Origin: Gammaproteobacteria bacterium
Lineage (GTDB): Bacteria; Pseudomonadota; Gammaproteobacteria; Ga0077536
Length of the DNA: 64,000 nucleotides
NCBI GenBank assembly: GCA_016191285.1
Contig: JACPPA010000012.1
Coordinates: 124,001 to 188,000, forward strand
Direction of reading: 5' to 3'
Shown here: one piece after another, positions 12,760 through 63,913 of the stretch
How the letters are laid out: each line of letters begins with the position of its first letter
Numbering within the stretch: the first letter of the stretch is position 1
Notes under the pieces: model-generated
What the model saw: the letters and a program-made list of their open reading frames with translations, nothing else
What the model was told of the DNA's origin: nothing
Databases searched by the model: none
Program-made: the position numbers and the translations under genes

Positions 12760-14598
12760 CTACTTTGCGTGTTGGCGTTGGACCGATTTTCGCTTAATCG
12801 CACCCCGGTGGATCACCTGCCCCCGTTGCAGTTGCGCCACTTTCAGCGCGAGTTCAATTTCGAGACGCCGCTCACCGCGTGCCGGATCGCCGCCGAGCAG
12901 CTCGGCAAGTTTCTTGACGCGATACTTGATGGTGTTGAGATGCAGACCCAAACTGCGCGCGGCTTCGGCTAAATTAAAATCGTGCGCGACCAGTACTTCA
13001 AGGGTCGGCATTAACACCGCCCGGCGGCTTGTAGCATCGGCTCGGTACAGGCGACCCAACACAGTTTCGACGAATTCCGCATGATCGGTACCGTGATTCG
13101 GCGAAAGCAGTAGTCGATAGACCCCAAGATCTTCGAAGAACACTGGACGTGCAATCTGCAGGCGTTGCGCAGCACGGAGGGCCTGCTCAGCACTGTGCAG
13201 GCTCCACGCCAAGGCCGTTGCCGCGGACTCCGCGCGGCCGATGCCGACACGCAACGCAAGCGCCGGCGCTCCTGGCGCATTGGCGCGTAGCGCACGACCA
13301 AAGGCGCGCTCGGCGGCCGGCGTTTGCAGGCGCTCCGCGGCGCTCGCCGGTAGCACGGTGACAAAGCCATTGCGCCACGGCAGCAAGGCGGCGCTTAATT
13401 CCTGCTGCTTCAAGGTCGCGCTGATCGCGCGCCTCACCTGCGGTTCCAAGGCGGTCTCCTCTTCCGCGCTAATGAGCGCAATCCGCGCTACGCGCCACGG
13501 GCCCTTCGTCGTAAATCCCAGCCGCTTCAAAATGGCGAGTGCGACTTCGCCCGTCACCTCGGTTTCAAAGAGATCGCCCAACAGGTCGCCCGCGACGCGG
13601 CGCTCCGCTTCGAAGGCCGAACGTTCCTGCAAGATTTCGACGGCAAACACGGTAGCCGCCTGCTCAATAGCTTTGCGATCGATGGCATCGAGCGGCGCCC
13701 CGCCATCTTCCACCACGATGAAGCCGGCCGCGTGCGCGCCCAGCATGATCGCCACTGCATTTAAATGCAGCTCCGGACCGGACACCTCACGCGTCACGCG
13801 TTGCAGACTGCTCGAGGGCGCGAGCGCGACGGCCGCACGTGCCGCGGTGGCCGTCCCGCCCGCGAGCCATCCCGCATCAGCCATGGCGCGGCGCATGGCG
13901 TCCAGCACTAACACCGGGCGTTGCAGCAGTTCACTCAACGTCGTGCACAGTCGATCGATACCGTGGGCTTCCTGCACCGTGCGTGTCAGCACCGCGTGAA
14001 TATGCATCGCGCGTTCAAGTTTATGCCGCTCGGTTTCAATGACCTTGAACATCCGCGCCGATTGCAGCACGGTCGCGAGCAGCGGCGCGACCAACGACAA
14101 CAGTGCCACATCGTCGGGCACGAAGACGCCGCTGCGTTTGTTGATCGCGTGAAACACCCCAATCGGCCGATCGCCCAAGATCAGCGGCACGGTCACCGTA
14201 TTCCGTGTCTTAAACAACTTGATGAACTGTTGCAGCATGCGCGGATTGCGGCGTGCGTCATTGGCGACATAGGGCTCCCGCGATAAAAATACTCGCGCGG
14301 CATTACCGCCGGCCGAGACTGACACTCGATAACTCGAGACGACGGTCGCCGCGTGGACGCCGAACGCGGGCTTCTGTAACACCAATTCGTCGCGCTCGGG
14401 GTCATAGAGCATGAAACCGCCGCTGCTGGCATCGACCGTCCCGCACACGGCTTCGATCACATCGCTCAACACTTTTTCATAATCACCGGTCGCAGCCATC
14501 GCGCGGCCCACGGCAAGCACGGCGGCGACTTGGCGTGCCGCAAGATCGTTGGCCACCCTGGTGGAAGTCTCGATTTGACGGGCGCGGGCTGGCGGCAT
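12760..14598 (-). CDS. GAF-domain PucR/CdaR-type transcriptional regulator
   Basis: A 612-residue regulator. Residues ~25-185 form a GAF domain (AVGRAMAATGDYEKVLSDVI; VTVPLILGDRPIGVFHAINK). A middle region contains EQAATVFAVEILQERSAFEA, typical of CdaR/PucR proteins. The C-terminal ~55 residues hold the PucR helix-turn-helix DFNLAEAARSLGLHLNTIKY, followed by RVKKLAELLG. Such proteins sense small organic molecules and control catabolic operons. It is divergent from the carboxylase operon and so is its likely regulator. Several possible starts exist near the N-terminus. Confidence 0.9.
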   Translation of the reverse strand: MPPARARQIETSTRVANDLAARQVAAVLAVGRAMAATGDYEKVLSDVIEAVCGTVDASSGGFMLYDPERDELVLQKPAFGVHAATVVSSYRVSVSAGGNAARVFLSREPYVANDARRNPRMLQQFIKLFKTRNTVTVPLILGDRPIGVFHAINKRSGVFVPDDVALLSLVAPLLATVLQSARMFKVIETERHKLERAMHIHAVLTRTVQEAHGIDRLCTTLSELLQRPVLVLDAMRRAMADAGWLAGGTATAARAAVALAPSSSLQRVTREVSGPELHLNAVAIMLGAHAAGFIVVEDGGAPLDAIDRKAIEQAATVFAVEILQERSAFEAERRVAGDLLGDLFETEVTGEVALAILKRLGFTTKGPWRVARIALISAEEETALEPQVRRAISATLKQQELSAALLPWRNGFVTVLPASAAERLQTPAAERAFGRALRANAPGAPALALRVGIGRAESAATALAWSLHSAEQALRAAQRLQIARPVFFEDLGVYRLLLSPNHGTDHAEFVETVLGRLYRADATSRRAVLMPTLEVLVAHDFNLAEAARSLGLHLNTIKYRVKKLAELLGGDPARGERRLEIELALKVAQLQRGQVIHRGAIKRKSVQRQHAK

Positions 14599-14802
14599 GG
14601 CCGAAGAAAGTCGCTTTTCGAAGGAAGACTTAGTTTGTCCGATCGAGCTAAATTAGCCAACGTTAATTTAGCCGTATCAGCTATAGACGATCCGAAGCAC
14701 TTGGCCTATCTTCCGGCGGCAGGAGGCGCAGACCTCCTTCAATTAAGCGCAAATTTACCGCCGCCCACACCGGTGCAGCGCGGATTACGCGGGGGGGGTC
14801 AT
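14599..14802. promoter_or_regulatory. divergent control region between regulator and carboxylase operon
   Basis: A 204-bp spacer. 14647-14657 is a perfect odd palindrome (GCTAAATTAGC). A related half, GTTAATTTAGC, lies at 14662-14672, giving a paired A+T-rich operator candidate in a GC-rich setting. A small hairpin AGGAGG-N6-CCTCCT lies at 14721-14738. A G-run at about 14791-14798 is the ribosome-binding site for the TTG start at 14803. Confidence 0.5.
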
Positions 14803-16725
14803 TTGTATAGCGTCGATATCGACACCGGCGGCACCATGACCGATACCTTGATCACGGGTGGCGGCGAGCCGGTCTTGATCAAAGTCGAGTCGACCCCACA
14901 CGACGTCACGGTCTCCTTCATGCAGAGCTTGGAAGCGGCGGCAAAGGCCCTGAACTCCGACTCGTTAGCCGCCTTCCTCGATCAAGTAAAGCTTATCCGT
15001 TGGTCATCGACCATCACGTCGAATGTACTGGCCCAACGCGCAGGCCCGAAACTTGGGCTGGTTGTTAGCATCGGGCATGAACAAGACTTATATGCGACGA
15101 ACCCCGCGGATACCGCGGCCGTGGTGCCTTCTCTGGTGCGACCCGAACATATCACCGGCCTACCGGAGAATGCGGATCGCGGGGAAATCGTCGCGATTCT
15201 GAAGCGCCTCATCGATCAAGGCATACGTCGCATCAACGTCTCGCTCAAAGGTGCGTTCCCAGATGGTCGGCGTGAGCAAGAGATCTTGAAAATTGTCGCC
15301 GAACAATTTCCGGATCATTACCTGGGTTCGGTGCCCGCGCTTGCCGGCAGCGACATGCTCATGCGACCGGACGATATGTCGCGAACCTTCTTCGCGTTGA
15401 TCAATTCCTATGTGCACAACTCGCTCGCGAATTCCTTGTTCAAGGCCGAGGACGCCGTCAAGGTTGAGCACAAATGGAAGGGCGATATTCTGGTCGGTCA
15501 TTTGAGCGGCGGTGTCGCGCGTATTGGTAAAACCAAGGCGGTCGATACCATCGAGTCCGGACCATTGTTTGGCACGCATGCGTCAGCGTATGTGGCCAAG
15601 GCCTTGAAGCTGCCGCGTGTACTCGCCATCGACATTGGCGGCACCACAGGTAAGGTCAGCGCCGTCACCGATGGGCGGATCGAAATGAAATCCGAAGGCG
15701 CGTTCTTCGGCATCCCCGTGCGCATGCCGATGGCGGTGCTGCGCTCCAACGCGTTGGGCGGCGGCAGTGTCGCACGGGCCGCAAACGGCACGGTGACCTT
15801 GGGGCCGGATAGCATGGGTGCCGCACCCGGTCCGGCCTGCTACGGCTTGGGCGGGACTCAAGCCACCTTGACCGACGCGCTGGTTACGCTCGGGCTAATC
15901 TCACCGACTGGTTTCTTAAACGGACGCCGCGTGTTGAACACCCACCTTGCGGCAGCGGCGCTTAAAAAGCAGGTGGCGGATCCGTTATCGATCACCGATC
16001 ACGCAGCTGCCGAGCAAGTCTACGCCCGCGCCGTCACGCTGATGAGTCAGCTGGCGCGCGACACGCTGCAAGAAGCCGGCTGGCCGAATGTGAGCAACAC
16101 CGTGCTCTTTGCGTATGGCGGTAACGGGCCGCTGTTTGCAACGGCGATCGCGGAGCACTTAGGCATTCGATCCGTGCGTTGTTTTGCACTGGGCACCGTG
16201 TTCAGTGCCTACGGTTCGGCGATCGCTGACGTGGTGCACCTGTACGAACGTGCACTCGTCAGTACCGAACTAACACGTGAAATCAACACCTGCACGAGCG
16301 AACTACTGGCGCAAGCCGCACGCGATCTCAAAGGCGAAGGCTTTGATCCGGCCGAGGCGAACTTGATCTGGACCCTGGAAGGCTCAGACGGCACGCGCGT
16401 CGAACAGGAAGGCGCCTTTGATTCGGCAATGATCGCGAAAATCCGCGCGCCGCAATTGCTGAGTCTCGCCGCGCGCTTCCCGATCGCGAAACAAGCGATC
16501 CCCGAACGCACGCCGAGCACAGGCGAATCGAAGACCGCGAGTCGTCAGTCGCCGCTCTCGTCGGCGGGCGAATTACCGGTGCACGACCATGGCGGATTAT
16601 TCGGGCGCACCCTGCGCGGACCGCTGATCGTCGACGGCGGCACCTTCACCTGGTACGTCGGCGCGCGGTGGGAATTGGTCGTCGATTTGCGCGGCGATGG
16701 CCTCCTCACCCAAGTCGCGGAGTAG
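14803..16725 (+). CDS. HyuA-like subunit of an acetophenone/acetone carboxylase-type enzyme (first copy)
   Basis: A 640-residue protein of the hydantoinase A/5-oxoprolinase N-terminal superfamily. It begins LYSVDIDTGGTMTDTLITGG (phosphate-binding loop of the ASKHA fold). A second nucleotide-binding segment is RVLAIDIGGTTGKVSAVTDG, and SMGAAPGPACYGLGG and LFAYGGNGPLFATAIAEHLG follow. The start is TTG 14803, behind a G-rich ribosome-binding site; the longer open frame upstream is not conserved-looking. In ketone carboxylases these subunits phosphorylate the substrate enol and/or bicarbonate using ATP. First gene of the operon. Confidence 0.88.
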   Translation: MYSVDIDTGGTMTDTLITGGGEPVLIKVESTPHDVTVSFMQSLEAAAKALNSDSLAAFLDQVKLIRWSSTITSNVLAQRAGPKLGLVVSIGHEQDLYATNPADTAAVVPSLVRPEHITGLPENADRGEIVAILKRLIDQGIRRINVSLKGAFPDGRREQEILKIVAEQFPDHYLGSVPALAGSDMLMRPDDMSRTFFALINSYVHNSLANSLFKAEDAVKVEHKWKGDILVGHLSGGVARIGKTKAVDTIESGPLFGTHASAYVAKALKLPRVLAIDIGGTTGKVSAVTDGRIEMKSEGAFFGIPVRMPMAVLRSNALGGGSVARAANGTVTLGPDSMGAAPGPACYGLGGTQATLTDALVTLGLISPTGFLNGRRVLNTHLAAAALKKQVADPLSITDHAAAEQVYARAVTLMSQLARDTLQEAGWPNVSNTVLFAYGGNGPLFATAIAEHLGIRSVRCFALGTVFSAYGSAIADVVHLYERALVSTELTREINTCTSELLAQAARDLKGEGFDPAEANLIWTLEGSDGTRVEQEGAFDSAMIAKIRAPQLLSLAARFPIAKQAIPERTPSTGESKTASRQSPLSSAGELPVHDHGGLFGRTLRGPLIVDGGTFTWYVGARWELVVDLRGDGLLTQVAE

Positions 16726-16729
16726 GCCA

Positions 16730-17107
16730 ATGAAACTCCTCAACATCGGCGAAAACCTGCAATGCGATCTGGACCGCGAAGTCTGGGTCTGCGGTCGCTG
16801 CCAGCACACGCTGGGTTCGGCGCACGCGAATGTGAAACAGGGACTACTGGTCGGCGAGCGCGATCCGCGCGAAATTCATCCGCCACTGTTGGAAAATCAG
16901 GAATACACCTTCGCGCCGAATCCCGAATGGATCCGCATCCTCGAATTCTATTGCCCTGGCTGCGGAGTGCAGATCGAAACCGAATACCTGCCGCCCGGAC
17001 ATCCCATCACCTACACCACCGAAATCGATATCGCCGCCTTGAAACAGCGCCTGGCGAATGGCGAAGTCGTGATCGAACACGGACATCTCAAAGTGGTGGG
17101 AGCATGA
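16730..17107 (+). CDS. small zinc-binding gamma subunit of the carboxylase (AcxC-like)
   Basis: A 125-residue protein with two CxxC pairs: WVCGRCQHTLG near residue 23 and EFYCPGCGVQIETEYLPPG near residue 81. This is the pattern of acetone carboxylase gamma and the equivalent 15-kDa acetophenone carboxylase subunit, a zinc-ribbon-like structural subunit. The start at ATG 16730 lies 4 nt after the first HyuA-like gene. The stop overlaps the next start (ATGA), so stoichiometric co-translation is likely. Confidence 0.87.
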   Translation: MKLLNIGENLQCDLDREVWVCGRCQHTLGSAHANVKQGLLVGERDPREIHPPLLENQEYTFAPNPEWIRILEFYCPGCGVQIETEYLPPGHPITYTTEIDIAALKQRLANGEVVIEHGHLKVVGA

Positions 17108-19248
17108 GAAGTGTCGATATCGATGTCGGCGGCACGTTTACCGACTTGGTCCTGACCTTCGACAGCCGCCGCGTCATCGCGAAATCGCCGACCACGCCGT
17201 ACGATCTTTCCGTGTGCTTCATGAATGTGCTCGAAGATGGCGCCGACCAACTCGGGATCGGCGTCGAGGATCTGCTGCCGCAGATCGAAGTCGTGCGCTA
17301 TTCGACGACGGTCGCGATGAACCGACTCATCGAACGTAAGGGCCCACGCCTCGGCTTTATGACCACCGAAGGCCACGAAGACGCGATCTTGATCGGCCGC
17401 GGCGCGCAATGGGTGGACGGCCTGCGCATTGGCGAACGGCGCAATTTGGCCGTGCAACATAAGCCAACACCGCTGGTCACGCGGCAGATGATTGTTGGCT
17501 TGCGCGAACGCGTGGATTCAACCGGCAGCATTCTGCGCGCGCTGGATGAAGACGATGTCCGCGTCAAATTGCGTTACCTCATGGACAACGGCGCGCGCTC
17601 GATCGCCGTATGTTTGTTGTGGTCGTTTGCCAATCCAACGCATGAACGACGCGTGCGCGAAATCATTCGCGAAGAATACAAGGGGTATCACGTCGGTTAC
17701 TTGCCGGTGGTGCTGTCGCACGAAGTCGTCGCCAAGGTCGGCGAATACGAACGCAGCATGACGGCCATTCTGGACGCCTACCTGCAGCGTTCGATCAAGC
17801 TCGAAATGGAAGCGACCTGGGATCAATTGCGCGAACGCGGTTATCGCGGCAGCTTCCTGCTGACGCACAACACCGGCGGCAGCGCCGAGATGTTCAAAAC
17901 CACCGCCTCGCGCACCTACAATGGCGGACCGATCTCGGGCTTGATGGGCTCCTACCATATCGGTCGTGCACTCGGTTACAAAAACGTGATCGCGAGCGAC
18001 GTCGGTGGCACCAGTTTCGATGTCGGCATGGTGGTCGATGCCGGCGTGCGGAGTTACGAGTTCCGTCCGATCATCGACCGCTGGATGGTCGGCATCACCA
18101 TGTTACAGACCACGACCATGGGCGCCGGCGGCGGCTCGATCGCGTCGATCAATAAATTACTCAATCGTCTCGAAGTGGGTCCGCACAGCGCGGGCGCCAT
18201 GCCGGGACCGGTGTGTTACGACTTAGGCGGCACCGAACCCACGGTGACGGATGCCGATGTCGCGCTCGGCTATATTTCGCCGGACAGCTACTTTGGCGGC
18301 CGCATGCCGTTGAATCTGGGCAAGGCCGTGGCGGCGATTCAAAACAAGATCGCCACCCCACTCGGCATGTCGGTCGATGAAGCCGCGGCGATGATCCGCA
18401 ACATCGTCGAAGAGAACATGGCGTCGGCGATCAAACGCGAAGTGCATCTGCGCGGCTATCATCCCGAGGATTTCGTCCTGTTCGCCTTCGGTGGTGGCGG
18501 CCCGACGCATGTCGCGGGCTATCGCGCCGAGGTGCCGGTCGCGGTGATCTTTCCGCAGGCTCCGGTGTTCTGCGCGCTCGGCAGTTCGGTCATGGACATC
18601 ATGCATGTCTACGAAGTCTCGCGGCGCATGGTGTTCATGGAAGCCGTCAGCGAAAAATTCACGACCGAGTACGAAGGTTTTAACGACGCCGTGCGCGACA
18701 TGGTCGCGCAGGCCAAAATCGATCTAACCGCCGAGGGCTTGGCAGTTGAGAGTGCAAGTTTTCAGCTCGAACTCGATATGTTGTACGGCGGCCAAATTCA
18801 CGTAAAACGCGTGTCATCGCCCCATCTGTACTTGGAGGATCCGCGGCATGTCGAGGAAATCTATGCGGCGTTCGAAGCGGAATTCTCCGCTGCGTTCTCG
18901 CCACATGTGGTGAACAAACCGGGCGGCGTGTATCTCGAAAACATCGTCTTGAAAGCCACTGTGCCGACCGAAAAGCTTGCGCTCCCGGAACACCCGCTGG
19001 GATCGCCGGACGCGAGCAGCGCGCGCGCAGGAGTACGCAATGCGTACTGGCCGGCGCTGAAGGCGCGACAAGATACGCCGGTCTATCGCTTTGAAGGCAT
19101 GCAACCGGGTCACCGCGTAACGGGGCCGGTGCTCATTGATGCGGAATTCACGACCGTCATCGTGCCACCCGGACAAGACTTTCACATCGATAGCCGCGGT
19201 CTCGGCATCATGGAATACGTTGCCACCACGCCAGGAGCGCACCCGTGA
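17104..19248 (+). CDS. HyuA-like subunit of the carboxylase (second, longer copy)
   Basis: A 714-residue hydantoinase A-like protein. It opens MRSVDIDVGGTFTDLVLTFD and contains KVGEYERSMTAILDAYLQR, LTHNTGGSAEMFKTTASRT, VIASDVGGTSFDVGMVVDAG, GAMPGPVCYDLGGTEPTVTD and LFAFGGGGPTHVAGYRAE. It is paralogous to but clearly different from the first copy. Having two distinct HyuA-like subunits is the composition reported for acetophenone carboxylase (alpha and alpha'). It overlaps the gamma gene by 4 nt and the HyuB-like gene by 4 nt. Confidence 0.9.
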   Translation: MRSVDIDVGGTFTDLVLTFDSRRVIAKSPTTPYDLSVCFMNVLEDGADQLGIGVEDLLPQIEVVRYSTTVAMNRLIERKGPRLGFMTTEGHEDAILIGRGAQWVDGLRIGERRNLAVQHKPTPLVTRQMIVGLRERVDSTGSILRALDEDDVRVKLRYLMDNGARSIAVCLLWSFANPTHERRVREIIREEYKGYHVGYLPVVLSHEVVAKVGEYERSMTAILDAYLQRSIKLEMEATWDQLRERGYRGSFLLTHNTGGSAEMFKTTASRTYNGGPISGLMGSYHIGRALGYKNVIASDVGGTSFDVGMVVDAGVRSYEFRPIIDRWMVGITMLQTTTMGAGGGSIASINKLLNRLEVGPHSAGAMPGPVCYDLGGTEPTVTDADVALGYISPDSYFGGRMPLNLGKAVAAIQNKIATPLGMSVDEAAAMIRNIVEENMASAIKREVHLRGYHPEDFVLFAFGGGGPTHVAGYRAEVPVAVIFPQAPVFCALGSSVMDIMHVYEVSRRMVFMEAVSEKFTTEYEGFNDAVRDMVAQAKIDLTAEGLAVESASFQLELDMLYGGQIHVKRVSSPHLYLEDPRHVEEIYAAFEAEFSAAFSPHVVNKPGGVYLENIVLKATVPTEKLALPEHPLGSPDASSARAGVRNAYWPALKARQDTPVYRFEGMQPGHRVTGPVLIDAEFTTVIVPPGQDFHIDSRGLGIMEYVATTPGAHP

Positions 19249-21296
19249 GTTATCCGACTGTCGAAGAAAAATTAGCCTCGCTCAAGGTCACGCCGGCCAG
19301 CGACTACGAACGCGAGTGCATGCAGAAAGTGTCGCGCGGCGCTTACGAAATCGCCGTGCAACGCACCGCCGACATCCTCGATGAGGGTTATGAAATCTTC
19401 ATGCGCTCGTCGCGAAGCTCAATGGGCGTCGCTGGCGATTCGATCGTCGCGATGTTCACGGCGGCTGGCGATCTGGTGAATGCGTCCGCCGGCACTTATT
19501 TGCACGCGGTGATCCCGCCGATCGTCATCAAGTATATTTTGAAAAAGTATCACGAGAATCCCGGCATCAACGACGGCGACATCTTCTACACCAACGATGC
19601 GCTGTACGGCGGCATTCACAACCCCGATCAAGTCGCCATCATGCCGGTGTTCTATGCCGGAAAACTGGTCGCGTGGACGGCGGCGTTATCGCATACCACC
19701 GAGACGGGGGCATGCGAACCGGGCGGCATGCCGTTGTCCGCCACTTCGCGGTTTGAAGAAGGGATGAATCTGCCGCCGATGAAGATCGGTCAAAATTTCC
19801 GGATCAATAACGACATCATCGAACTCTTCAGCGCCTTCGGGATCCGGGCGGAGGCGATGGTCACCGTCGACCTTAAAGCCCGTTGCACCACCGCCGATCG
19901 CGTGCGGTTGCGCCTGGTTGAAATGTGCAAGCGTGAAACGCCGGAATTTGTCACCGGCCTCTTCCGTCGCATGCTGATCGAAGCCGAAGCCGGTGCGCGC
20001 AAGCGCCTCAAAACCTGGCCCGATGGTATCTACCGCTGCGCGACGTTCAGCGACGCGGCCGGATTGAAGCGCGGCCTGATCCGCAATTGCTTCATGACCA
20101 TGCGGAAGTGTGGCGATCACCTCACCATAGATTTTACCGGCACCAGCCCCGAGAACCTGTCGAGTTATAACGCGCACCCGCAGGCGGTGGTCGGCCATCT
20201 GGCGAATTACATCTACGAATATGTGTTTCACGATCTGCCCATTTCGAGCGCGACGTTCGCGCCGCTCGATTTTATTTTTCCGGAAGCGAGCTGTCTGTCG
20301 CCAACACCCCGGGCCGCAACCAGCAACGCAGTGATGATCTGCACCGGGGCGATGAGCGCGATCGCCAATTGCATTTCGCGCGCGCGTTTCCCGAGCGAAG
20401 AATGGCGCCAAGCCACCGCCTCAATGGGTAACGGCGGTAACGCGCCCGTGATCGCGGGCGCCTCGCAATGGCAGATGCCCTTCGCCGACATGATCGCCTA
20501 CACCATCAACACCGAGGGCCAGGGCGCGCGCTGCACCCACGATGGCATGGATGCGTATGGCTTTCCATGGTGTGCCTTTGGCCGCGCGCCCAATGTCGAG
20601 AACATGGAAAATGAATTTCCAATGTTGGTGCCCTTTAGCCAGCATTGGCCGGATTCCGGCGGCCATGGCAAATATCGCGGGGGCTGTGGCACGGCGCAGT
20701 TTTGGTCGGCGCACCACGTGCCGATGCTGTTCTTCCTGGCGATTGCGGATAACAGCACCGTCCAGACCCCGCAACCGCTATTCGGTGGCTACGCGCCACC
20801 CACCGTGCCTGGGTTATCGATCAAGGACACCAAGATCTCGGAACTGATGCGGCAGTTGGAAAACAAAACGCTCGATTTTCTAAGCCTCGTCAAAGGCGAA
20901 TTCGGCGAACTCACTACCGAACCTTTTGGCCGTGCAGCACGTCCGATCGAGGGCGACAAAACGATTTCGATTCTGATGTCGACCGGCGGTGCAGGTTATG
21001 GCGATCCGCTCGATCGGGATCCATTGTCCGTGCAAAAAGATTTGATTGCGGGCCTGTGTTCGGAATTCAGTGCGCGCGAAATCTACCAGGTTGCCTGGGA
21101 TGCAGTGCGCGAGCGGGTCGATCTCGTGGCCACCGAAGCCTTACGTGCGGAAGCGCGCCGCGCGCGCCTGAAGCGTGGCGTGCCGTACCACGAGTTTGAG
21201 CCCGCGTGGCTTAAACGCCGACCGCCTGAGGACGCAATGGCGCTGTATGGTTCATGGCCGGACGCGAAGCCGCTCGCGCCAGTGTATCGGCCGTAA
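19245..21296 (+). CDS. HyuB-like catalytic subunit of the carboxylase
   Basis: A 683-residue hydantoinase B family protein starting at GTG 19245, overlapping the previous stop. Conserved blocks include SSRSSMGVAGDSIVAMFTAA, DGDIFYTNDALYGGIHNPDQ, FTGTSPENLSSYNAHPQAVV, FWSAHHVPMLFFLAIADN and MSTGGAGYGDPLDRDP. In acetone and acetophenone carboxylases this subunit joins the activated ketone enolate to CO2 or carboxyphosphate. Length is close to that of the known 75-kDa subunit. The true substrate is not shown by the sequence. Confidence 0.9.
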   Translation: MSYPTVEEKLASLKVTPASDYERECMQKVSRGAYEIAVQRTADILDEGYEIFMRSSRSSMGVAGDSIVAMFTAAGDLVNASAGTYLHAVIPPIVIKYILKKYHENPGINDGDIFYTNDALYGGIHNPDQVAIMPVFYAGKLVAWTAALSHTTETGACEPGGMPLSATSRFEEGMNLPPMKIGQNFRINNDIIELFSAFGIRAEAMVTVDLKARCTTADRVRLRLVEMCKRETPEFVTGLFRRMLIEAEAGARKRLKTWPDGIYRCATFSDAAGLKRGLIRNCFMTMRKCGDHLTIDFTGTSPENLSSYNAHPQAVVGHLANYIYEYVFHDLPISSATFAPLDFIFPEASCLSPTPRAATSNAVMICTGAMSAIANCISRARFPSEEWRQATASMGNGGNAPVIAGASQWQMPFADMIAYTINTEGQGARCTHDGMDAYGFPWCAFGRAPNVENMENEFPMLVPFSQHWPDSGGHGKYRGGCGTAQFWSAHHVPMLFFLAIADNSTVQTPQPLFGGYAPPTVPGLSIKDTKISELMRQLENKTLDFLSLVKGEFGELTTEPFGRAARPIEGDKTISILMSTGGAGYGDPLDRDPLSVQKDLIAGLCSEFSAREIYQVAWDAVRERVDLVATEALRAEARRARLKRGVPYHEFEPAWLKRRPPEDAMALYGSWPDAKPLAPVYRP

Positions 21297-21322
21297 GCGG
21301 CCGCGGACCGCCGTGCACGCCG

Positions 21323-22045
21323 ATGACGATTAAACCCGCACGCAAAAGAGTCCAAGCCATCGCGCTGGGGCGCGGGGCGACTGAGCGCGTTATCGGCCCA
21401 CTCGCGTTTGAGACCGCCGCACAAATTTCCGCGCGTCCGCTCGATGAATTTCGTACCGACCCCACACAACTCGCGAATGGACTCAATGAATTTCAACGGG
21501 CGACCGCCACCGACTTTATTTGTTGTGCATTGGCGAACGAGTTGGAACTCGCCTCGAGCGGTGGGGTGTTAACGCTTGAAGCGTGGCTGACGCCGGGGCA
21601 GCGGTTATACGCCAGTCTCGAAGCTTGTAAGCGCTTGCGAATAACGGTGGGTGATAACGTCGCCTTACTGGTGGGACTAACGGGACCCGCGACCCTCGCG
21701 GCGCAGTTCAACGCGCCGCTCAGTGCGGTGAGCGAGATTTTTAGCGCGCTGGTTAAACATTTCTGCGAAGCCGGCGCCGATCTAGTCTTAGTGATTGACC
21801 CCACAGGTTCGAACGCCGATACCGGCATTAATGACATCCTACGCACGGCTAGCAACATCGCGCGCTTTCACCGCGGCTTGACCTTGGGCTGGGAACCGGC
21901 TTCGTCGCTGCCGCAACCGCAGCGCGTGCCGCTCGCGAGTCCGCTGGTCGCCGGCGCCGGGATCACCACCACCGACACCATCGTCGCGGCCGACGCGAGT
22001 ATCGAAGCCGTACGCCGATGGATGGCCATCACCGCGGGCAGTTGA
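21323..22045 (+). CDS. short UroD-like protein in the carboxylase operon
   Basis: A 240-residue protein with blocks like the uroporphyrinogen decarboxylase/corrinoid methyltransferase barrel: RKRVQAIALGRGATERVIGP at the start, then ALLVGLTGPATLAAQF and LVKHFCEAGADLVLVIDPTG. It is about 100 residues shorter than UroD and lacks the usual C-terminal barrel strands. It occupies the place of the fifth gene in the apcABCDE order of Aromatoleum. Whether it matches that epsilon subunit cannot be judged here. ATG 21323 is chosen; an earlier in-frame ATG (21254) would overlap the HyuB gene. Role unknown. Confidence 0.6.
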   Translation: MTIKPARKRVQAIALGRGATERVIGPLAFETAAQISARPLDEFRTDPTQLANGLNEFQRATATDFICCALANELELASSGGVLTLEAWLTPGQRLYASLEACKRLRITVGDNVALLVGLTGPATLAAQFNAPLSAVSEIFSALVKHFCEAGADLVLVIDPTGSNADTGINDILRTASNIARFHRGLTLGWEPASSLPQPQRVPLASPLVAGAGITTTDTIVAADASIEAVRRWMAITAGS

Positions 22046-22047
22046 AC

Positions 22048-23367
22048 ATGACCAAGCTCTACTGGAACGCCGAGGCGGAAACGCTAGCCGCGGCTGCGCT
22101 GCGCGCCTTGCATACCCGAAAGCTGCACACCGCACTGAACTACGTCGCGACGCATTCAAAATTTTATCAGGCGAAATTTGCAGGAGCTGGGGTTTCGCCT
22201 AACGACTTCACCGCCCTTGAGGATCTGGCGCGCTTTCCGTTCACCGAGAAAAGTGAACTGCGTGAAAGTCAGCTCCGCGACCCGCCGTTCGGCGAACATC
22301 GCGCCTGCGCTAGCGCGGAAATTCGTCGCGTGTACTCGACCAGCGGCACCACGGGCCGCCCGACCTATATAGGGTTGACTGCCCACGACATCGCACAATG
22401 GCGCGAGGTGGCCTTACGCGCCTTTTGGGCGTCGGGCTTGCGCCCCGGCGCGATCGTTCCGGTGGTGGTATCGCCCTTCGTCGTCGCGGCCTCGTATGCC
22501 GACGCCTTCGAGACCGTCGGCACCTGTATCCCGATCGGCGTCAATATGACCGATCGTCTGATCGATGCGTTCCGCTTTGCACGCGCGAATACGCTGCTCT
22601 GCACGGCGTCGTATCCCTTACACTTCGCCGCCGCACTCCAACAGCGCGGCATCGATCCTAAAACCTTGGGACTAAAACTCATTTTCGCCGGCGGTGAGCC
22701 GGGCGCTTCGATCCCCTCGGTGCGCCAACAAATAGAGGATACCTTTGCGTGCCGCATGCTGGAAGTGTCGGGCAACGGCGATTACAGTGCGATGGCCTGG
22801 GGCGAGTGCGAACATCGACTGGGCATGCATTTTTGCGGGCAAGGCTTGATCCATCCGGAACTCGTCGAACCCGACACGGGTCGCGTCATTGACATCGTTC
22901 CCGGGGCACAAGGCGAGCTGGTGTGTACCAGTCTGGATCGCGAATGCATTCCGCTCGTACGCTTCCGCACCCGCGATCATGTCGTCGTTACCCACACTGA
23001 GTGCGCCTGCGGACGAACGGGGTTCGGCATTCGCATCATCGGCCGTACGGATGACATGCTGATTGTGCGCGGCGTGAATGTTTATCCGTCGGCGGTGCGC
23101 GATGTGATCGCGAGCTTCGCGCCGCGGACGACCGGCGTTATCGAAATTCAACTGCACAAACCGCCGCCAGAGGGTTGGGAACCGCCATTGCAAATCAAGG
23201 TTGAGCACACCGGGCTCGCCGATCGACTCACCGGCCTTAGTGCTGAAATCGAGGCAAAGCTCCGCGAAAAGCTAATTTTCCGAGCGCAGATCGAATTGGT
23301 GCCAGACGGTTCCCTTCCCCGCTACGAATACAAAGCAAAGCTGGTGCGGAAAATCTACGAAGGATAA
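22048..23367 (+). CDS. PaaK-like acyl/aryl-CoA ligase
   Basis: A 439-residue AMP-forming ligase of the phenylacetate-CoA ligase type. The ATP-binding motif is RVYSTSGTTGRPTYIG. Other blocks are LKLIFAGGEPGASIPSVRQQ, the EVSGNGDYSAMAWGECE region, LVRFRTRDHVVV with a following CACG metal site, and IIGRTDDMLIVRGVNVYPSA. It starts 2 nt after the UroD-like gene. A CoA ligase after a ketone carboxylase fits a route in which the new beta-keto acid is activated to its CoA thioester for thiolysis. Aromatoleum uses a different ligase (Bal) at the same step. Confidence 0.9.
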   Translation: MTKLYWNAEAETLAAAALRALHTRKLHTALNYVATHSKFYQAKFAGAGVSPNDFTALEDLARFPFTEKSELRESQLRDPPFGEHRACASAEIRRVYSTSGTTGRPTYIGLTAHDIAQWREVALRAFWASGLRPGAIVPVVVSPFVVAASYADAFETVGTCIPIGVNMTDRLIDAFRFARANTLLCTASYPLHFAAALQQRGIDPKTLGLKLIFAGGEPGASIPSVRQQIEDTFACRMLEVSGNGDYSAMAWGECEHRLGMHFCGQGLIHPELVEPDTGRVIDIVPGAQGELVCTSLDRECIPLVRFRTRDHVVVTHTECACGRTGFGIRIIGRTDDMLIVRGVNVYPSAVRDVIASFAPRTTGVIEIQLHKPPPEGWEPPLQIKVEHTGLADRLTGLSAEIEAKLREKLIFRAQIELVPDGSLPRYEYKAKLVRKIYEG

Positions 23368-49128: not shown

Positions 49129-49793
49129 GCGGCCGCCTGATGCTGGCGCGACGGGATTCGCGCATCGAGTCCGCGATCACATAAATAAACCAAGGTCTCG
49201 GCCTCCGTATCAAAGCTCATCAGGTCGCGCAAATCATCGGGGGTGTCGATGTCGAAGGCAATCCCCGGTAATTGCAATATCCGCACCGCGGCGCCGATGT
49301 CGCGCGCCGCCGCGCAATGCGCATGAAAGCTTTCGTGTCCAAAATGAAACGGTATCAAGTCCGGCGACGATACCGCCAACGCATTGGTGCCAAAGCCTTC
49401 GCGATCAGAGACGATGGTCATGTGCGGGGCCTCGCTATGCGCCATGATTATTGTATCGATCTCGTAGGGCGTGGCGAGCGGCACATCGCCGGGCAACATC
49501 AGCATGCGCGTTTCGCCCCGCGCCAGCAAATGCAAGCCCGCTTGCGTCACGGCGCGCGACAGCCCGCGCATTTCTTCCGGCAACACGCTCGCGCCAGCGC
49601 GTGCGGCGAGTTCGTGAATCGTCGCTTCCTGCGACACAACGAGCACCCCGGTCACTCGGCTACAACGCGCGAGCGTCGCCAGCAAATCCTGCAGCATCAC
49701 GCGCGCCAGCGTCGCGCGCTCGGTGTCGGTCAATACCGCGGCGAGGCGTTGCTTCGCATACGCAAAAGGTTTAACGGGGATAACGGTCCACAT
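49122..49793 (-). CDS. cofC: CofC (FbiD) phospholactate/3-phosphoglycerate/PEP guanylyltransferase
   Basis: A 223-residue nucleotidyltransferase. It has the N-terminal VIPVKPFAYAKQRLAAVLTD, LMLPGDVPLATPYEID, GFGTNALAVSSPDLIPFHFG and GIAFDIDTPDDLRDL. CofC activates a three-carbon phospho-acid with GTP for transfer to FO. The acid differs by clade (PEP, 2-phospholactate or 3-phosphoglycerate) and this sequence does not settle it by eye. Second-last gene of the F420 run. Confidence 0.93.
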   Translation of the reverse strand: MWTVIPVKPFAYAKQRLAAVLTDTERATLARVMLQDLLATLARCSRVTGVLVVSQEATIHELAARAGASVLPEEMRGLSRAVTQAGLHLLARGETRMLMLPGDVPLATPYEIDTIIMAHSEAPHMTIVSDREGFGTNALAVSSPDLIPFHFGHESFHAHCAAARDIGAAVRILQLPGIAFDIDTPDDLRDLMSFDTEAETLVYLCDRGLDARIPSRQHQAAAW

Positions 49794-49860
49794 AGAAAAT
49801 TAACGCCACGTGCCTTACACGGCGACACTACCCAGTGGACAGCAAAAAAATGACACGGAT

Positions 49861-50826
49861 TTAATGGGCTTTTTTGTCAGCGTTGAGTCGGTGGATTAAA
49901 TCCAGAGTGACGCGGGCCAGCTCGATTTTGTCGGCCAACGTTACCATGACCGTCGGGGCAGCGATAGCGGCCAAATCCAACCCTTCGAAGCTGGGCAATA
50001 GCGCCGCGTCCGCGTGGTCCAAGATGAATCCGTCAAGGATATCCGCATAGTGCGCCGCTACCGCAACGGCCGATTGCGGAACCTTGAGTTCGCTCATCAT
50101 TTTGACCGTTGGCCCCTTCAACGCGAGACCCGCCACGATCGGCGATACGGCGACGACGGGCGCTGGGAGCGCGCGTAACCGTTCGCGTAAGCCCGGCACC
50201 GCCAACACCGGATCGATACTGACAAAGGGATTCGACGGACAAATGATCACCCCTCTCAGCGCCGAGTCATCCAACCATCCCAACACTTCCGAACTCATGC
50301 GCGCATCGGCCGCGCCCGCAAACGAGAAGCCGGTTACCGCGGGCTCGCAGCGGTCGCGCACAAAATAATGCTGGAAGGCCAGCGCGCCAGCGGCCGTGTG
50401 AACCACGGTGCGCACCGGCGCGTCGGTCATCGGCAATATTGAATGTGCTATGCCGAGGCGAGTTGTCAGCTCGCGCGTGATCGCGGTTAGCGTCGCGCCC
50501 TCGCGCAAACGCGCGGTACGCAGCGCATGCAAAGCCAAATCGCGATCGCCGAGATTAAACCAGGCCTCGCCACCCAATAGGCGCAAGGTCTCGATGAAAT
50601 GCCAGGTTTCGCCGCGCCGGCCCCAACCGGTGTCGGGATTGCTGAGGTCCGCTAGCGTATAAGTCAGGGTGTCGATATCGGGCGAGATATGCAGCCCGAG
50701 ATGTTCAAAATCGTCACCCGTGTTAACCACGAAGGCGAGCGCACTCGAATCTTCCAAGTGAGTCAACCCTAAGGCCAACTTGGCGCCGCCGACGCCTCCC
50801 GTAATCGCCAAATATTTTGCGCCCAT
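49861..50826 (-). CDS. cofD: CofD (FbiA) 2-phospho-L-lactate-type transferase
   Basis: A 321-residue protein with the family hallmarks: YLAITGGVGGAKLALGLTHL, GWGRRGETWHFIETLRLLGG, WFNLGDRDLALHALRTARL and ICPSNPFVSIDPVLAVPGL. It joins the guanylylated acid from CofC to FO, giving F420-0 or dehydro-F420-0. Same strand as cofC and cofE; a REP pair lies between it and cofE. Confidence 0.95.
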   Translation of the reverse strand: MGAKYLAITGGVGGAKLALGLTHLEDSSALAFVVNTGDDFEHLGLHISPDIDTLTYTLADLSNPDTGWGRRGETWHFIETLRLLGGEAWFNLGDRDLALHALRTARLREGATLTAITRELTTRLGIAHSILPMTDAPVRTVVHTAAGALAFQHYFVRDRCEPAVTGFSFAGAADARMSSEVLGWLDDSALRGVIICPSNPFVSIDPVLAVPGLRERLRALPAPVVAVSPIVAGLALKGPTVKMMSELKVPQSAVAVAAHYADILDGFILDHADAALLPSFEGLDLAAIAAPTVMVTLADKIELARVTLDLIHRLNADKKAH

Positions 50827-50883
50827 CGCCTAGTGTGGAGTCCCGCAACGAACTTTAGTAGTTCGTAATGCTATTACAACACT

Positions 50884-50953
50884 TTGTGGGAGCCGCTTCA
50901 GCGGCGAATCTTGACTGAGCAAGGTGCAATTCGCGGCTAAAGCCGCTCCCACC
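50884..50953. repeat. REP inverted pair between cofD and cofE
   Basis: Plus copy 50884-50909 (stem GCCGCTTCAGCGGC, one base changed in the loop) and minus copy 50929-50953 (stem GCGGCTTTAGCCGC). Confidence 0.85.
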
Positions 50954-50997
50954 ATAACTAAGGTGTCGATTAATTGAGTTGATTACGGAATGGCACA

Positions 50998-58142: not shown

Positions 58143-60245
58143 TCATTTGCCGGCATCGACCTTGAGCGCCCCGGCTTTTGCTGCTTTCGCCGCCTGGCGA
58201 CGGATGTAGTGTTGCAGGGCGACCAAGTCTTTATCGGTCAGTTCCTTGAACTGCGGCATGCCCTGTAGCTGTCGGCTGCCCTTGATCACGACTTCGTGGA
58301 ACGCTTCCAGAAACAGCGGTGCCTGCGATTCACGCAGATCAGGCGCATAACCGCCGGACACCGCGCTGCCACCGTGACACAGCGTGCAGTTCCTGACGTA
58401 AATATCGCTGCCCTGCTGCGCCAACAACGGATCGACTTTGAAATCCTCCTTCACCACCGGCTGCGGGATGCGTGGCGGCGGCGACGCCGGCAACACGGAT
58501 TTACTCTCCAGCGCAAACGTTAAAAGGCGTCGCGGTTGCTCACGATAGGCCCAGCCGTGCTGTGCCGTCACGGTGCCGGCAAACGACATGCCCGCGCCGC
58601 CCCAGCCGACCAGCAGCGACACATATTGTTTACCGTCCACGGCATAGGTGATCGGCGCGGATGAAATACCAAGGCCAGCGTTAAACGACCATAAGGCGGC
58701 ACCGGTTTTCGCGTTATAGACGAAGAATTTACCATCAGCTCGGCCTTGCAGAACTAAGTTGCCTGCCGTGGTCAGGGTGCCGGGATTCCACACCCCAGGC
58801 AGCTTCACTTCCCACACTTTCTTTTGTTTGACGGGATCCCAGGCGAGCAACCATGACGCATCGATTTTGATCGGCAGTTCGTCGCCCTTTGTAAATCGGA
58901 CTCCGGGATCCATTTGGAAGTTGGTCGCGTGCCAGGTGACTGGATTCATGCCTTTATCGGAAAACCAACCCGCCATTTCCATGGTGGGGATGTACACCAG
59001 GCCCGTGTCCTTGTTGTACGACATCGGTGGCCAGTTATGCACGCCAAAGGCACTTGGAAAAACCATTGCTTCGCCATCTTCGTAGCGCGCGCCGGGTATT
59101 TCGACGGGTCGCCCGGTTTTTAGATCGACATGCGAGGCCCAGGTGACCTTGCCGATCTTCTCCGCAGAAATGAGTTTGCCGGTGCTGCGGTCGATGACGT
59201 AGAAGAAGCCATTCTTCGGCGCATGCATCAAGGCCTTGACTGGTTTACCAGCGATCGTGAGATCGGCCAACACGATGTCCATATTCGAGTTGTAATCCCA
59301 CGACTCGCCGGGGGTGGTCTGGTAATGCCAGACATACTTTCCGGTGTCCGCATCGAGCGCGACAATCGCGCACAGAAATAAATTATCGCCGCCACCTGGA
59401 CTGCGGATCTTGCGATTCCATGGGGAGCCGTTGCCGGTGCCAATGTAGAAACGATTGAATTCCGGATCGTAAGTCAGCCCATTCCAGGTCTGACCACCAC
59501 CGCCGTGTTTCCACCATTCGCCAGTCCAAGTCTTGGCGGCCATGGCCTGGGCTTCGTCCTCAAACCCCTTCGCCGGATCGCCTGGTACCACGTAGAAGCG
59601 CCACGCCTGCTTACCGGTCGCGGTGTCATACGCTGTGACATAGCCACGCGCCGAACCCACTTCGGTGCCACCGTTGCCGATGAGGACTTTATCGCGGAAC
59701 ACGCGCGGCGCGCCGTTGATATAGAGCGGAAGTTTGGGATCGGTGGTTTGCGCGCTCCAGACTTCCTGGCCCGTTTGGGCGTCCACCGCGATCAGGCGAC
59801 CGTCGCCGGTGGCGACAAACAAGCGCCCTTTCCAATACGCCGCGCCGCGGTTCGAATCCCAAAAGATCCGCGCGCGATCGCCAGCGATTTCCAATACCTT
59901 GGGATCATAAGTCCACACCACCTTGCGCGCTCTTAAGTCGACCGCGAAAAGCTTGGCCCAGCTCCCCGTGAAATACATCATGCCGTCGACGACGAGCGGC
60001 GTTGAAATCAGTGAGCGCTGGTCGGGAAGCTCCAGAAACCAATCGAGGCCGAGACCTTTAACGGTCTCGTCGGTGATCGTTTTCAAAGGACTGTAGCGTT
60101 GTTCGCTGTAAGTGCGCCCATACGAGAGCCAGTTGGCGCCTTGGACTTCATCCGCGATCGCCGCGCCATCGACCGTGGTCTGTGCATGCACCGTGGGTAC
60201 CGCAATGAGAATGGCGGCACTGATCTTCGCTAAAGGATTCATCAA
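58143..60245 (-). CDS. PQQ-dependent alcohol dehydrogenase with C-terminal cytochrome c (copy 1)
   Basis: A 700-residue periplasmic quinohaemoprotein. A signal peptide (to ~HA, residue 21) precedes the eight-bladed PQQ propeller: ANWLSYGRTYSEQRYSPLKT, then GESWDYNSNMDIVLADL at the metal/PQQ Asp, and GKQYVSLLVGWGGAG. A cytochrome c domain with CTLCHGG near residue 632 follows. The usual vicinal cysteine pair is absent: the segment reads ARIFWDSNRGAAYWKGRLF. The residue two after the catalytic Asp is Asn (WDYN), not the Asp of lanthanide-type enzymes. Closely paralogous to the gene at 60467-62554. Confidence 0.93.
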   Translation of the reverse strand: MMNPLAKISAAILIAVPTVHAQTTVDGAAIADEVQGANWLSYGRTYSEQRYSPLKTITDETVKGLGLDWFLELPDQRSLISTPLVVDGMMYFTGSWAKLFAVDLRARKVVWTYDPKVLEIAGDRARIFWDSNRGAAYWKGRLFVATGDGRLIAVDAQTGQEVWSAQTTDPKLPLYINGAPRVFRDKVLIGNGGTEVGSARGYVTAYDTATGKQAWRFYVVPGDPAKGFEDEAQAMAAKTWTGEWWKHGGGGQTWNGLTYDPEFNRFYIGTGNGSPWNRKIRSPGGGDNLFLCAIVALDADTGKYVWHYQTTPGESWDYNSNMDIVLADLTIAGKPVKALMHAPKNGFFYVIDRSTGKLISAEKIGKVTWASHVDLKTGRPVEIPGARYEDGEAMVFPSAFGVHNWPPMSYNKDTGLVYIPTMEMAGWFSDKGMNPVTWHATNFQMDPGVRFTKGDELPIKIDASWLLAWDPVKQKKVWEVKLPGVWNPGTLTTAGNLVLQGRADGKFFVYNAKTGAALWSFNAGLGISSAPITYAVDGKQYVSLLVGWGGAGMSFAGTVTAQHGWAYREQPRRLLTFALESKSVLPASPPPRIPQPVVKEDFKVDPLLAQQGSDIYVRNCTLCHGGSAVSGGYAPDLRESQAPLFLEAFHEVVIKGSRQLQGMPQFKELTDKDLVALQHYIRRQAAKAAKAGALKVDAGK

Positions 60246-60317
60246 CGTCTCCCCGGTTCGAATGGTTTATTGGATTAGCGTTTGGTCCGTGTCGTTGCTA
60301 CCGCGGATCCAAATTCG

Positions 60318-60416: not shown

Positions 60417-60466
60417 CTTCGTGCCTGAACGCGCGTTCAACATATAGAATCACGTGGCCGCACCTA

Positions 60467-62554
60467 TCACCGTTTCGCGGTCTCGATCGATTTATTGGCT
60501 TGGCGGCGAATGTAATGTTGAAGCGCCACCAAATCACTGTCGGTCAATTCGCGGAACGCCGGCATCCCAGCTTTTTTACGCACACCGCCAACTACGATTT
60601 CGCGCAAACCATCCAAGAACAACGGAATGGGCGAAGAGCGCAGATCGGGCGCGTAACCTCCCGACACCGCACCGCCGCCATGACAGGTCACGCAATTCTT
60701 CAAGAACAAATGACTGCCCTGCTCGGCCACCAGCGGATCGACTTTGAAATCATCCTTGATGAGGGGTTTAGCCATTTGCGGCGGTGGTGAGGGCGGCAAC
60801 ACCGCGCCACCTTCCAGGCTGAAAATCAGCAGGCGCCGCGGATGCACGCGATAACCCCAACCGTGCTGCGCCGTGATCGAGCCCGCCATCGACACCCCGG
60901 CGCCACCCCAGCCCGTGAGAATCGCGAGATATTGTTTGCCGTCGACGCTGTAGCTGATGGGCGGTGCCGAGAGACCAACGCCGGTGTTGAACTTCCAGAC
61001 TTCCTTGCCGGTGTCGGCACGGTAGCCGACGAGCATGCCGTCGGCACGCCCTTCGAACACCAGGTTTCCTGCAGTGGTGAGCGTGCCTGGATTCCATACG
61101 CCAGGCAGCTTGACCTCCCACACTTTCTTCTTCTTCACCGCATCCCATGCGATCAACGCGCTGGCATCCAGTTTCAGCGGCACATCTTCACGCATTAAAT
61201 CCACGCCCGGATCGAATTGAAAGCTGGGCGATTCCCATTTCACCAAATTGAATCCTTTGTCAGTGAAGATCGCCGGAATATCCATGATCGGGATGTAGGT
61301 GAGACCGGTTTGCGGATTGAAGGACATGGCGTGCCAGTTATGCACGCCTAAAGCGCTCGGGTTAATCAGCGTTTCACCGGTTTCATAGCGCGCGTTTGGC
61401 GCTTCTACGGGGCGGCCGGTTTTCAGATCGACATGCGTCGCCCAGGTCACATTGATCAGCTTGTCGGCCGAGATGAGCTTGCCAGTCGCGCGATCGATGA
61501 CATAGAAAAATCCATTTTTCGGCGCGTGCAACAAGGCCTTTACCGGCTTACCGTCGATTTTTAGATCAGCAAGCACCATGTCCATATTCGAGTTGTAATC
61601 CCACGACTCCCCGGGCACCGTTTGGTAATGCCACAGGTACTTGCCGGTATCAGCATCGAGCGCGACGATCGCGCACAAGAACAAATTGTCGCCGCCGCCG
61701 GGGCTCCGGATCTTGCGATTCCACGGCGAACCATTGCCCGTGCCGAGATAGATTCGATTGAACGCCGGGTCGTACGTAAGCCCGTTCCATACGGTGCCGC
61801 CGCCGCCGTGCTTCCACCACTCGCCGGTCCAGGTTTTCGCCGCCATCGCTTGCGTTTCATCTTCAAAGCCCGCGGCGGGATTACCCGGTACGGTATAGAA
61901 ACGCCAGATCTGTTTGCCGGTCGCCGCGTCATACGCGGTCACGTAACCGCGTAACGGACCCCATTCCGTGCCGCCGTTGCCGATAATGATTTTGTCGTTG
62001 AAGGCGCGCGGCGCGCCATTGATAAAATATGGCTTCGCGGGGTCGACGGTCATCGTGCTCCAGATTTCCGTGCCACTCTTCGCATCAACCGCATTCAGTC
62101 GACCATCCCCGGTGGCGACATAGACCTTGCCCTTCCAATATGCGACGCCGCGGTTCGAATCCCAAATCACGCGTCCGCGATCGCCCGCTGCCTCGATGAC
62201 CTGGGGGTCATAGGTCCATAGCACCTTTTGGGTTTTGAGATCGAGCGCAATGACGATACTGTAGCTGCCAGTGAAATACATGACACCGTCAACGACAAGC
62301 GGAGTGGCGAGCAGTGATTTGTGGGCGGGGAGATCGAGAAACCAATCGAGCGCGAGCTTGCTGACATTATCTGCCGTGACCTGACGCAATGGACTGTAGC
62401 GCTGCTCGCTATAGGTTCGGCCATAGGACAACCAATTGGCGCCTTGCGTGTCATCGGCCAGGGCCTTGCCATCCACCACGGTCACCGCGTGTGTGATCGC
62501 GCTGAACGCGATACCGCAGAGCAAGCTACTAATGATCCGTAATCGCATATTCAA
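60467..62554 (-). CDS. PQQ-dependent alcohol dehydrogenase with C-terminal cytochrome c (copy 2)
   Basis: A 695-residue paralogue of the downstream enzyme: signal peptide (SSLLCGIAFSAITHA), propeller with QGANWLSYGRTYSEQRYSPL, GESWDYNSNMDMVLADL and GKQYLAILTGWGGAG, and a haem c site CVTCHGG near residue 642. It also lacks the vicinal cysteines (GRVIWDSNRGVAYWKGKVY). The N-terminus is leader-like. It oxidises an alcohol or aldehyde in the periplasm and passes electrons to its haem. The specificity difference from copy 1 is unknown. Confidence 0.93.
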   Translation of the reverse strand: MNMRLRIISSLLCGIAFSAITHAVTVVDGKALADDTQGANWLSYGRTYSEQRYSPLRQVTADNVSKLALDWFLDLPAHKSLLATPLVVDGVMYFTGSYSIVIALDLKTQKVLWTYDPQVIEAAGDRGRVIWDSNRGVAYWKGKVYVATGDGRLNAVDAKSGTEIWSTMTVDPAKPYFINGAPRAFNDKIIIGNGGTEWGPLRGYVTAYDAATGKQIWRFYTVPGNPAAGFEDETQAMAAKTWTGEWWKHGGGGTVWNGLTYDPAFNRIYLGTGNGSPWNRKIRSPGGGDNLFLCAIVALDADTGKYLWHYQTVPGESWDYNSNMDMVLADLKIDGKPVKALLHAPKNGFFYVIDRATGKLISADKLINVTWATHVDLKTGRPVEAPNARYETGETLINPSALGVHNWHAMSFNPQTGLTYIPIMDIPAIFTDKGFNLVKWESPSFQFDPGVDLMREDVPLKLDASALIAWDAVKKKKVWEVKLPGVWNPGTLTTAGNLVFEGRADGMLVGYRADTGKEVWKFNTGVGLSAPPISYSVDGKQYLAILTGWGGAGVSMAGSITAQHGWGYRVHPRRLLIFSLEGGAVLPPSPPPQMAKPLIKDDFKVDPLVAEQGSHLFLKNCVTCHGGGAVSGGYAPDLRSSPIPLFLDGLREIVVGGVRKKAGMPAFRELTDSDLVALQHYIRRQANKSIETAKR

Positions 62555-63133: not shown

Positions 63134-63913
63134 CTAAAACGGACTGCAGCCGCGATCGCTGTACTCAGTCCCGCCAAACAAAGCGGTCATAAGCCCATTC
63201 CGCCATTGGCGTACCTGGCCACCGAAGCGACAGAGATCGAGCATCTCCAGCCGTAACTCCATCATGCGCGTCAAAGGTAGTTTCACCTCCAACGGCGCGC
63301 GTGTGGCGCCGCTTAACAAGGTCATCACACAGAAGTCTTCGTTGCGCTGATCGTCATGCTCCACACGTTCGCAGAATTTGGGATCTTTGATCGCCGCACC
63401 GCCCAGCCATACTTCGTGATTACCACGGCCGAGCGACCAGCGCGCGAAAAGCTCAGCCCACGGCGGCGCCCAGTGGGACTTCAACAGTTGGACGGCCTGT
63501 TTCGAATCGCTCGCAAAGGGACTGCCCCATTCGCGGACCCGAAACGATTCAGGAAACGCCACGGGCGGATACGGAAACTCCGCGATCAGCGGCGGGTAAT
63601 TCGAATACCGTTGCATATCGATCGAGTCGATGCGTAACCGGACGCGCGCGGGCCGATCAAAGCGCAAGAGATCGCCCACTTGCGATAACGACCAATGCAC
63701 CGGATCTGGTCCACACTTCTGCACCAAATTGCTATTAGCGGGATCTTTCGCCGGGTCTTGCTCCATGCCGCGCATTACATAGAACAGCGCACAATCGTCG
63801 CTCGCGAAGTCAGCGCTGTGAATTGGCTGCCAGCCCCAGAAGATGCTGAGCTGGCGCGCGCCAACGACGAGCCCGATGAGGATCAAGAACCCGAGGATAA
63901 GGCGGCGAACCAT
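63134..63913 (-). CDS. membrane-anchored protein of unknown function
   Basis: A 259-residue protein. An N-terminal hydrophobic helix (RLILGFLILIGLVVGARQ) could be a signal anchor. The rest is soluble with six to seven cysteines (DDCALFY, KCGPDP, FCERVE, EDFCVMT, LCRFGGQ, RGCSPF). Not recognised. ATG 63913 is the natural start. A periplasmic location would suit the cysteines; this is inference. Confidence 0.7.
   Translation of the reverse strand: MVRRLILGFLILIGLVVGARQLSIFWGWQPIHSADFASDDCALFYVMRGMEQDPAKDPANSNLVQKCGPDPVHWSLSQVGDLLRFDRPARVRLRIDSIDMQRYSNYPPLIAEFPYPPVAFPESFRVREWGSPFASDSKQAVQLLKSHWAPPWAELFARWSLGRGNHEVWLGGAAIKDPKFCERVEHDDQRNEDFCVMTLLSGATRAPLEVKLPLTRMMELRLEMLDLCRFGGQVRQWRNGLMTALFGGTEYSDRGCSPF

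Follow-up and report, generated by a model that had tools for sequence, protein, structure and literature searches.

An acetophenone carboxylase-type operon with a shortened ApcE and a PaaK-like CoA ligase in an uncultured gammaproteobacterium

The window, as the whole analysed stretch of 64,000 nucleotides is called here, carries between positions 14803 and 23367 six consecutive genes on the + strand, which are no more than about 27 bp apart or overlap by 4 bp (Table 1). The 4-bp overlaps lie at the apcB-apcC and apcC-apcD junctions, which suggests translational coupling. The genes follow the Aromatoleum order, apcA-apcB-apcC-apcD-apcE, and then a PaaK-like ligase, as anticipated in the original prediction of a five-gene acetophenone carboxylase (Apc) plan plus a ligase. 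Also, its rejection of the three-gene acetone carboxylase plan is borne out, there being five genes, two of them HyuA-like, in an order other than that of acxABC. The operon is real, complete and of the Apc type.

Table 1. Features of the apc locus and of associated genes in the window.
Feature	Coordinates	Strand	Remarks
apcA, Apc alpha' (HyuA-like; proposed bicarbonate kinase)	14803..16725	+	TTG start, 640 aa
apcB, small zinc subunit	16730..17107	+	125 aa
apcC, Apc alpha (HyuA-like; proposed ketone kinase)	17104..19248	+	714 aa
apcD, Apc beta (HyuB-like core subunit)	19245..21296	+	GTG start, 683 aa
apcE, shortened epsilon, uroporphyrinogen-decarboxylase-like barrel	21323..22045	+	240 aa
PaaK-like CoA ligase (proposed 3-oxoacid/benzoylacetate CoA ligase)	22048..23367	+	
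pucR-type regulator (GAF + GGDEF-like + PucR C-terminal HTH), divergent	12760..14598	-	
Possible operator, TTTGTCC half-site, pucR-apcA gap	14634..14651	+	
Type II quinohemoprotein alcohol dehydrogenase, orthologous to relatives' apc-adjacent gene	58143..60245	-	
Type II quinohemoprotein alcohol dehydrogenase no. 2	60467..62554	-	
259-aa protein, no Pfam or NCBIfam family	63134..63913	-	

The best solved relative of all five subunits is the Apc of Aromatoleum, with which subunits A-D share 47-64% identity. In phmmer searches, ApcA matched Apc alpha' (5l9w_b) with E 1.1e-165 and 47% identity, ApcB matched 5l9w_C (3.9e-38), ApcC matched Apc alpha (5l9w_B) with E 0 and 64% identity, and ApcD matched Apc beta (5l9w_A; 2.7e-290). 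These E-values, together with a gene order that recurs in dozens of genomes, place the matches far beyond chance. For the two HyuA-like proteins, Apc alpha' and alpha are better matches than AcxA, hydantoinases or oxoprolinases, in agreement with the assignment first proposed for them, and both proteins carry ATP motifs, all of which are present in ApcC. ApcA contains the motifs DTGGTMTD, DIGGT and GAAPGP and retains the equivalents of E248, D274 and K281 of the proposed bicarbonate pocket; ApcB harbors the Pfam domain Acetone_carb_G and four zinc-ligand cysteines; and ApcD retains the equivalents of D65, H123, D126 and H148. The fingerprint RERxDSxG occurs as RERVDSTG in ApcC and is absent from ApcA. 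Subunits A to D measure 640, 125, 714 and 683 residues versus 658, 129, 732 and 684 in 5l9w, the gamma subunit of Acx having 168. The operon thus agrees with all the features published for sorting Apc enzymes, namely gene order, position in the tree, lengths of the subunits, ATP motifs in the two HyuA-like proteins, an RERxDSxG fingerprint confined to alpha and four cysteines in the small subunit (PMC5214803).

In an ApcC tree, built by a quick method and with outgroups on long branches, the window's family and Actinomycetota form one clade (support 100), sister to the clade of Aromatoleum aromaticum EbN1 (99), with Acx and hydantoinase-like genes of the window's own genome falling outside. 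Membership of the operon in the Apc branch is settled. All five subunits miss the cut-offs of the NCBIfam equivalogs NF042960 and NF042974-NF042977 (score/cut-off for ApcA to ApcE, 656/1250, 161/250, 1187/1500, 1039/1500 and 73/450), so that the enzyme is not to be filed as an acetophenone carboxylase by function.

The fifth gene product matches crystalline ApcE (9fou_A) with E 3.4e-11, and an AlphaFold2 model computed from 28 sequences (pLDDT 96) aligns with that structure in VIA-align with Z 26.2 and an rmsd of 2.6 over 237 residues, followed by methylcobalamin:CoM methyltransferase and uroporphyrinogen decarboxylase as the next fold matches. The predicted fold confirms the gene as apcE, a homologue of which follows the core in 55 non-redundant loci. 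With 240 aa in the window, ApcE stands between the versions of Acidobacteria, Bacillota and the EbN1 clade (about 270-360 aa) and those of the Actinomycetota of the window's clade (about 200-220); judging from these sequences, its length declines along the tree. In the ApcE alignment T48 is the one invariant column, eight others (P, A, I, G, P, G, N, F) are almost invariant and no His or Cys is conserved, so that a catalytic active site could not be argued; a structural or triggering role would fit better than metal-dependent catalysis.

The ligase, which contains the Pfam domain AMP-binding_C_2, matches 2-hydroxyisobutyryl-CoA synthetase in the PDB (8.9e-56) and PaaK (5e-54) about equally. 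It scores 208 bits against TIGR02155 (PaaK phenylacetate-CoA ligase), below the equivalog cut-off of 646, and is therefore described as PaaK-like, not as PaaK. Homologues lie near apc in 37 non-redundant loci. In L061 and L116, with ApcC 90% and 85% identical to that of EbN1, a PaaK-like ligase directly follows apcE, so that the initial contrast between a PaaK-like ligase here and an Aromatoleum type does not hold in these EbN1-clade relatives. A PaaK-like ligase looks like the rule for apc operons.

The divergent GAF-PucR regulator described at the outset was recovered on the - strand (12760-14598), with Pfam HTH_30 at 1.6e-17 and GAF_2 at 3e-15. PucR homologues stand beside apc in 12 loci, mostly in divergent orientation, with Actinomycetota, Bacillota and Dormibacterota among the hosts, and the regulator would be expected to control transcription of the operon. 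Several pucR-apc gaps in the family contain a degenerate palindrome, TTTGTCC-N4/5-GGACAAA, a motif selected post hoc, which is strong in L025-L028, reduced to a half-site in the window and lacking in L022. The half-site is tentatively proposed as a putative operator, the motif not being general.

An ApcA orthologue occurs in 17 of the 36 family genomes, including the window's own, the other copies being 49-72% identical. A named scan recovered the operon in Pseudomonadota, Actinomycetota, Acidobacteriota, Chloroflexota, Bacillota and Archaeoglobi, the named hosts being uncultured Gammaproteobacteria, Pseudonocardia, Microbacterium, Panacagrimonas, Paenibacillus, Acidobacteria, Chloroflexi and Archaeoglobi. 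Given this spread, and given that Apc-like operons have already been described in several bacteria (PMC5214803), the claim of a new host in the original prediction carries little weight. New here are the shortened ApcE, a candidate thiolase and the association with alcohol dehydrogenases, the overall enzyme design being already known.

Ketone carboxylases are plentiful in the family, with six Acetone_carb_G matches in the window's own genome and 14 in genome G013. The former also encodes a second, divergent apc-like operon (G000:C40:225444-233239; L035:4444-12239) comprising A-D and a 279-aa fifth gene, for which hhalign gave a probability of only 7% as a remote ApcE. Its ApcC groups with that of an operon on a plasmid of the haloarchaeon Halorientalis marina (99), and the second operon adjoins a halogenase-like FAD protein and an MMPL/RND transporter, neighbours that make a different substrate likely. 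Elsewhere in the window, translations alone point to FbiC/CofGH-like, CofD-like and CofE-like genes (46675-51762), which in this gammaproteobacterium seem to form a cluster for F420 biosynthesis, and a CoA-transferase family protein (51901-53124) resembles 2-methylfumaryl-CoA isomerase, scoring 557 bits against a cut-off of 725.

Two type II quinohemoprotein alcohol dehydrogenases are encoded 35 kb downstream of apc (58143-62554). The protein at 58143..60245 exceeds the TIGR03075 cut-off of 480 with 558 bits, and genes 71-85% identical to it adjoin apc in L020 and L023; that at 60467..62554 matches PDB 1kv9 with E 9.5e-207 and has counterparts (73-82% identity) adjoining apc in L020, L022 and L023. 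Homologues of the protein at 63134-63913 (45-66% identity) lie beside apc in L020, L022, L023, L024 and L028, and in relatives the gene stands between pucR/apc and the quinohemoprotein dehydrogenase. The adjacency of the dehydrogenases to apc in relatives can partly be explained by vertically inherited gene order. Among 13 apc-bearing genomes of Acidobacteria, eight have a quinohemoprotein alcohol dehydrogenase within about 20 kb of apc on the same contig, either close to it (L083, L087, L088, L089, L103, L107) or some 15-16 kb away (L074, L075), and in seven of these eight it is the genome's only such gene above the family cut-off; the naive chance of this proximity is about 2e-11, too small a figure given the relatedness of the genomes. 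The dehydrogenase differs in orientation and side from locus to locus and its association with apc is seen in two phyla, which together with the proximity supports, without proving, the derivation of the ketone from a secondary alcohol. Quinohemoprotein alcohol dehydrogenases are broad in their substrates, and a search of the literature available found no paper on one acting on 1-phenylethanol.

As for downstream steps, a thiolase adjoins apc in 21 non-redundant loci and, within the window's family, is found in 10 of 12 genomes with apc and in 2 of 11 without it (Fisher 0.003, kinship ignored). No copy of this apc-linked thiolase was found in the window's own genome, the closest paralogue having 24% identity. 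The benzoylacetyl-CoA thiolase of EbN1 was called unknown (PMC4729919), and the operon-linked thiolase of the relatives is a concrete candidate for this missing step. The own genome contains the aerobic boxB, above cut-off, and lacks PF06050 benzoyl-CoA reductase subunits, which makes an anaerobic reductase route unlikely and favours an aerobic one if the product is benzoyl-CoA. Family genomes with and without apc carry boxB, so that its presence is permissive rather than specific.

Of seven residues lining the ApcC pocket, five equal those of EbN1, and the other two differ conservatively (L81M, F281Y). M81/Y281 is a common pocket state across the ApcC tree and is therefore uninformative as a guide to the substrate. 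In L025 and L026 the pocket motif Q-T at positions 344-345 of ApcC is replaced by E-C, a possible specificity variant.

We consider it probable, though by no means assured, that the operon encodes a biotin-independent, ATP-dependent ketone carboxylase of the Apc branch and a ligase for its product, most likely serving an acetophenone-like aryl methyl ketone under aerobic conditions. A periplasmic quinohemoprotein alcohol dehydrogenase would oxidize a secondary alcohol of the 1-phenylethanol type to the ketone. By analogy with the enzyme mechanism described for A. aromaticum (PMC5214803), ApcC would phosphorylate the enol of the ketone and ApcA would convert bicarbonate to carboxyphosphate. The complex with ApcB, ApcD and ApcE would join both intermediates into a 3-oxoacid at the expense of 2 ATP; the PaaK-like ligase would form the CoA thioester, a thiolase would cleave it to aroyl-CoA and acetyl-CoA, and any benzoyl-CoA would be degraded through the aerobic Box route.

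The same chemistry may instead act on a different ketone, be it aliphatic, alicyclic, terpenoid or a ring-substituted aryl ketone, a reading that we regard as possible but less probable. It draws on the breadth of the quinohemoprotein dehydrogenases, the missed equivalog cut-offs and the separation of the window's clade from that of EbN1; moreover, as of 2017 the Apc branch had a single characterised member, and function assignment to distant members was cautioned against (PMC5214803). However, ApcC retains an aromatic pocket residue and the Asn at the positions of F281 and N282, where Acx has I and V, the PaaK-like ligase is a frequent partner and boxB is present. Simple ketones are probably served by enzymes of their own, as the genome encodes three separate Acx-branch HyuA genes (35-40% identity to Acx). 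A more specific proposal is an aerobic module, so far undescribed and common to the window's clade and Acidobacteria, in which a periplasmic quinohemoprotein dehydrogenase of secondary alcohols would feed an Apc-type carboxylase, a PaaK-like ligase and a dedicated thiolase that act on a ketone other than acetophenone; this is possible, though less likely than not.

The remaining readings were rejected on gene order, scores and the tree. Hydantoinase_A/B Pfam domains and weaker matches to caprolactamase models are what an amide, lactam or hydantoin hydrolase (hydantoinase, 5-oxoprolinase or caprolactamase type) would share with the operon, but such enzymes are encoded by two genes without alpha', zinc subunit or epsilon, the Apc subunits score far better, and CoA ligase and thiolase partners do not suit an amidase, leaving this highly improbable. 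Equally hard to credit is a canonical acetone carboxylase AcxABC, despite the common superfamily and the Acetone_carb_G domain of ApcB, in view of the two HyuA genes among five, the different order, the position of Acx outside in the ApcC tree and the separate Acx-like genes of the same genome.

The operon can be set beside three known systems. A sister clade with a shortened ApcE, another regulator and a conserved dehydrogenase partner provides a natural contrast for studying ketone specificity and the role of ApcE. The ApcABCDE and bal of EbN1 (5L9W, 9FOU; PMC5214803, PMC4729919) comprise the same five subunits in the same order with a ligase after apcE, and share the ATP motifs, zinc cysteines, bicarbonate-site residues and ApcE fold. 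In contrast, the window belongs to the sister clade (ApcC 64% and ApcA 47% identical), its ApcE has 240 aa rather than about 300, a PucR regulator replaces the two-component system of EbN1 (PMC4729919), and distant quinohemoprotein dehydrogenases take the place of neighbouring ebd-ped genes. Members of the EbN1 clade carry a histidine kinase upstream (L116) and, in many operons, a CobW-type GTPase after apc (L033, L059, L061-L065, L067, L070, L116), possibly a metal chaperone for the zinc subunit. The operons of Pseudonocardia dioxanivorans and other Actinomycetota (L048-L055, L108) fall in the same ApcC clade as the window (100) and have the same apcABCDE order and, in several cases, a PaaK-like ligase, whereas their ApcE is even shorter (about 200 aa), several have a thiolase and a long AMP-binding enzyme after apc, and those checked have GntR or AraC regulators instead of PucR. 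The acetone carboxylase AcxABC (5M45, 5SVB) has the HyuA/HyuB core and zinc subunit in common with the operon, but consists of three genes without alpha' or epsilon, with longer subunits and other pocket residues.
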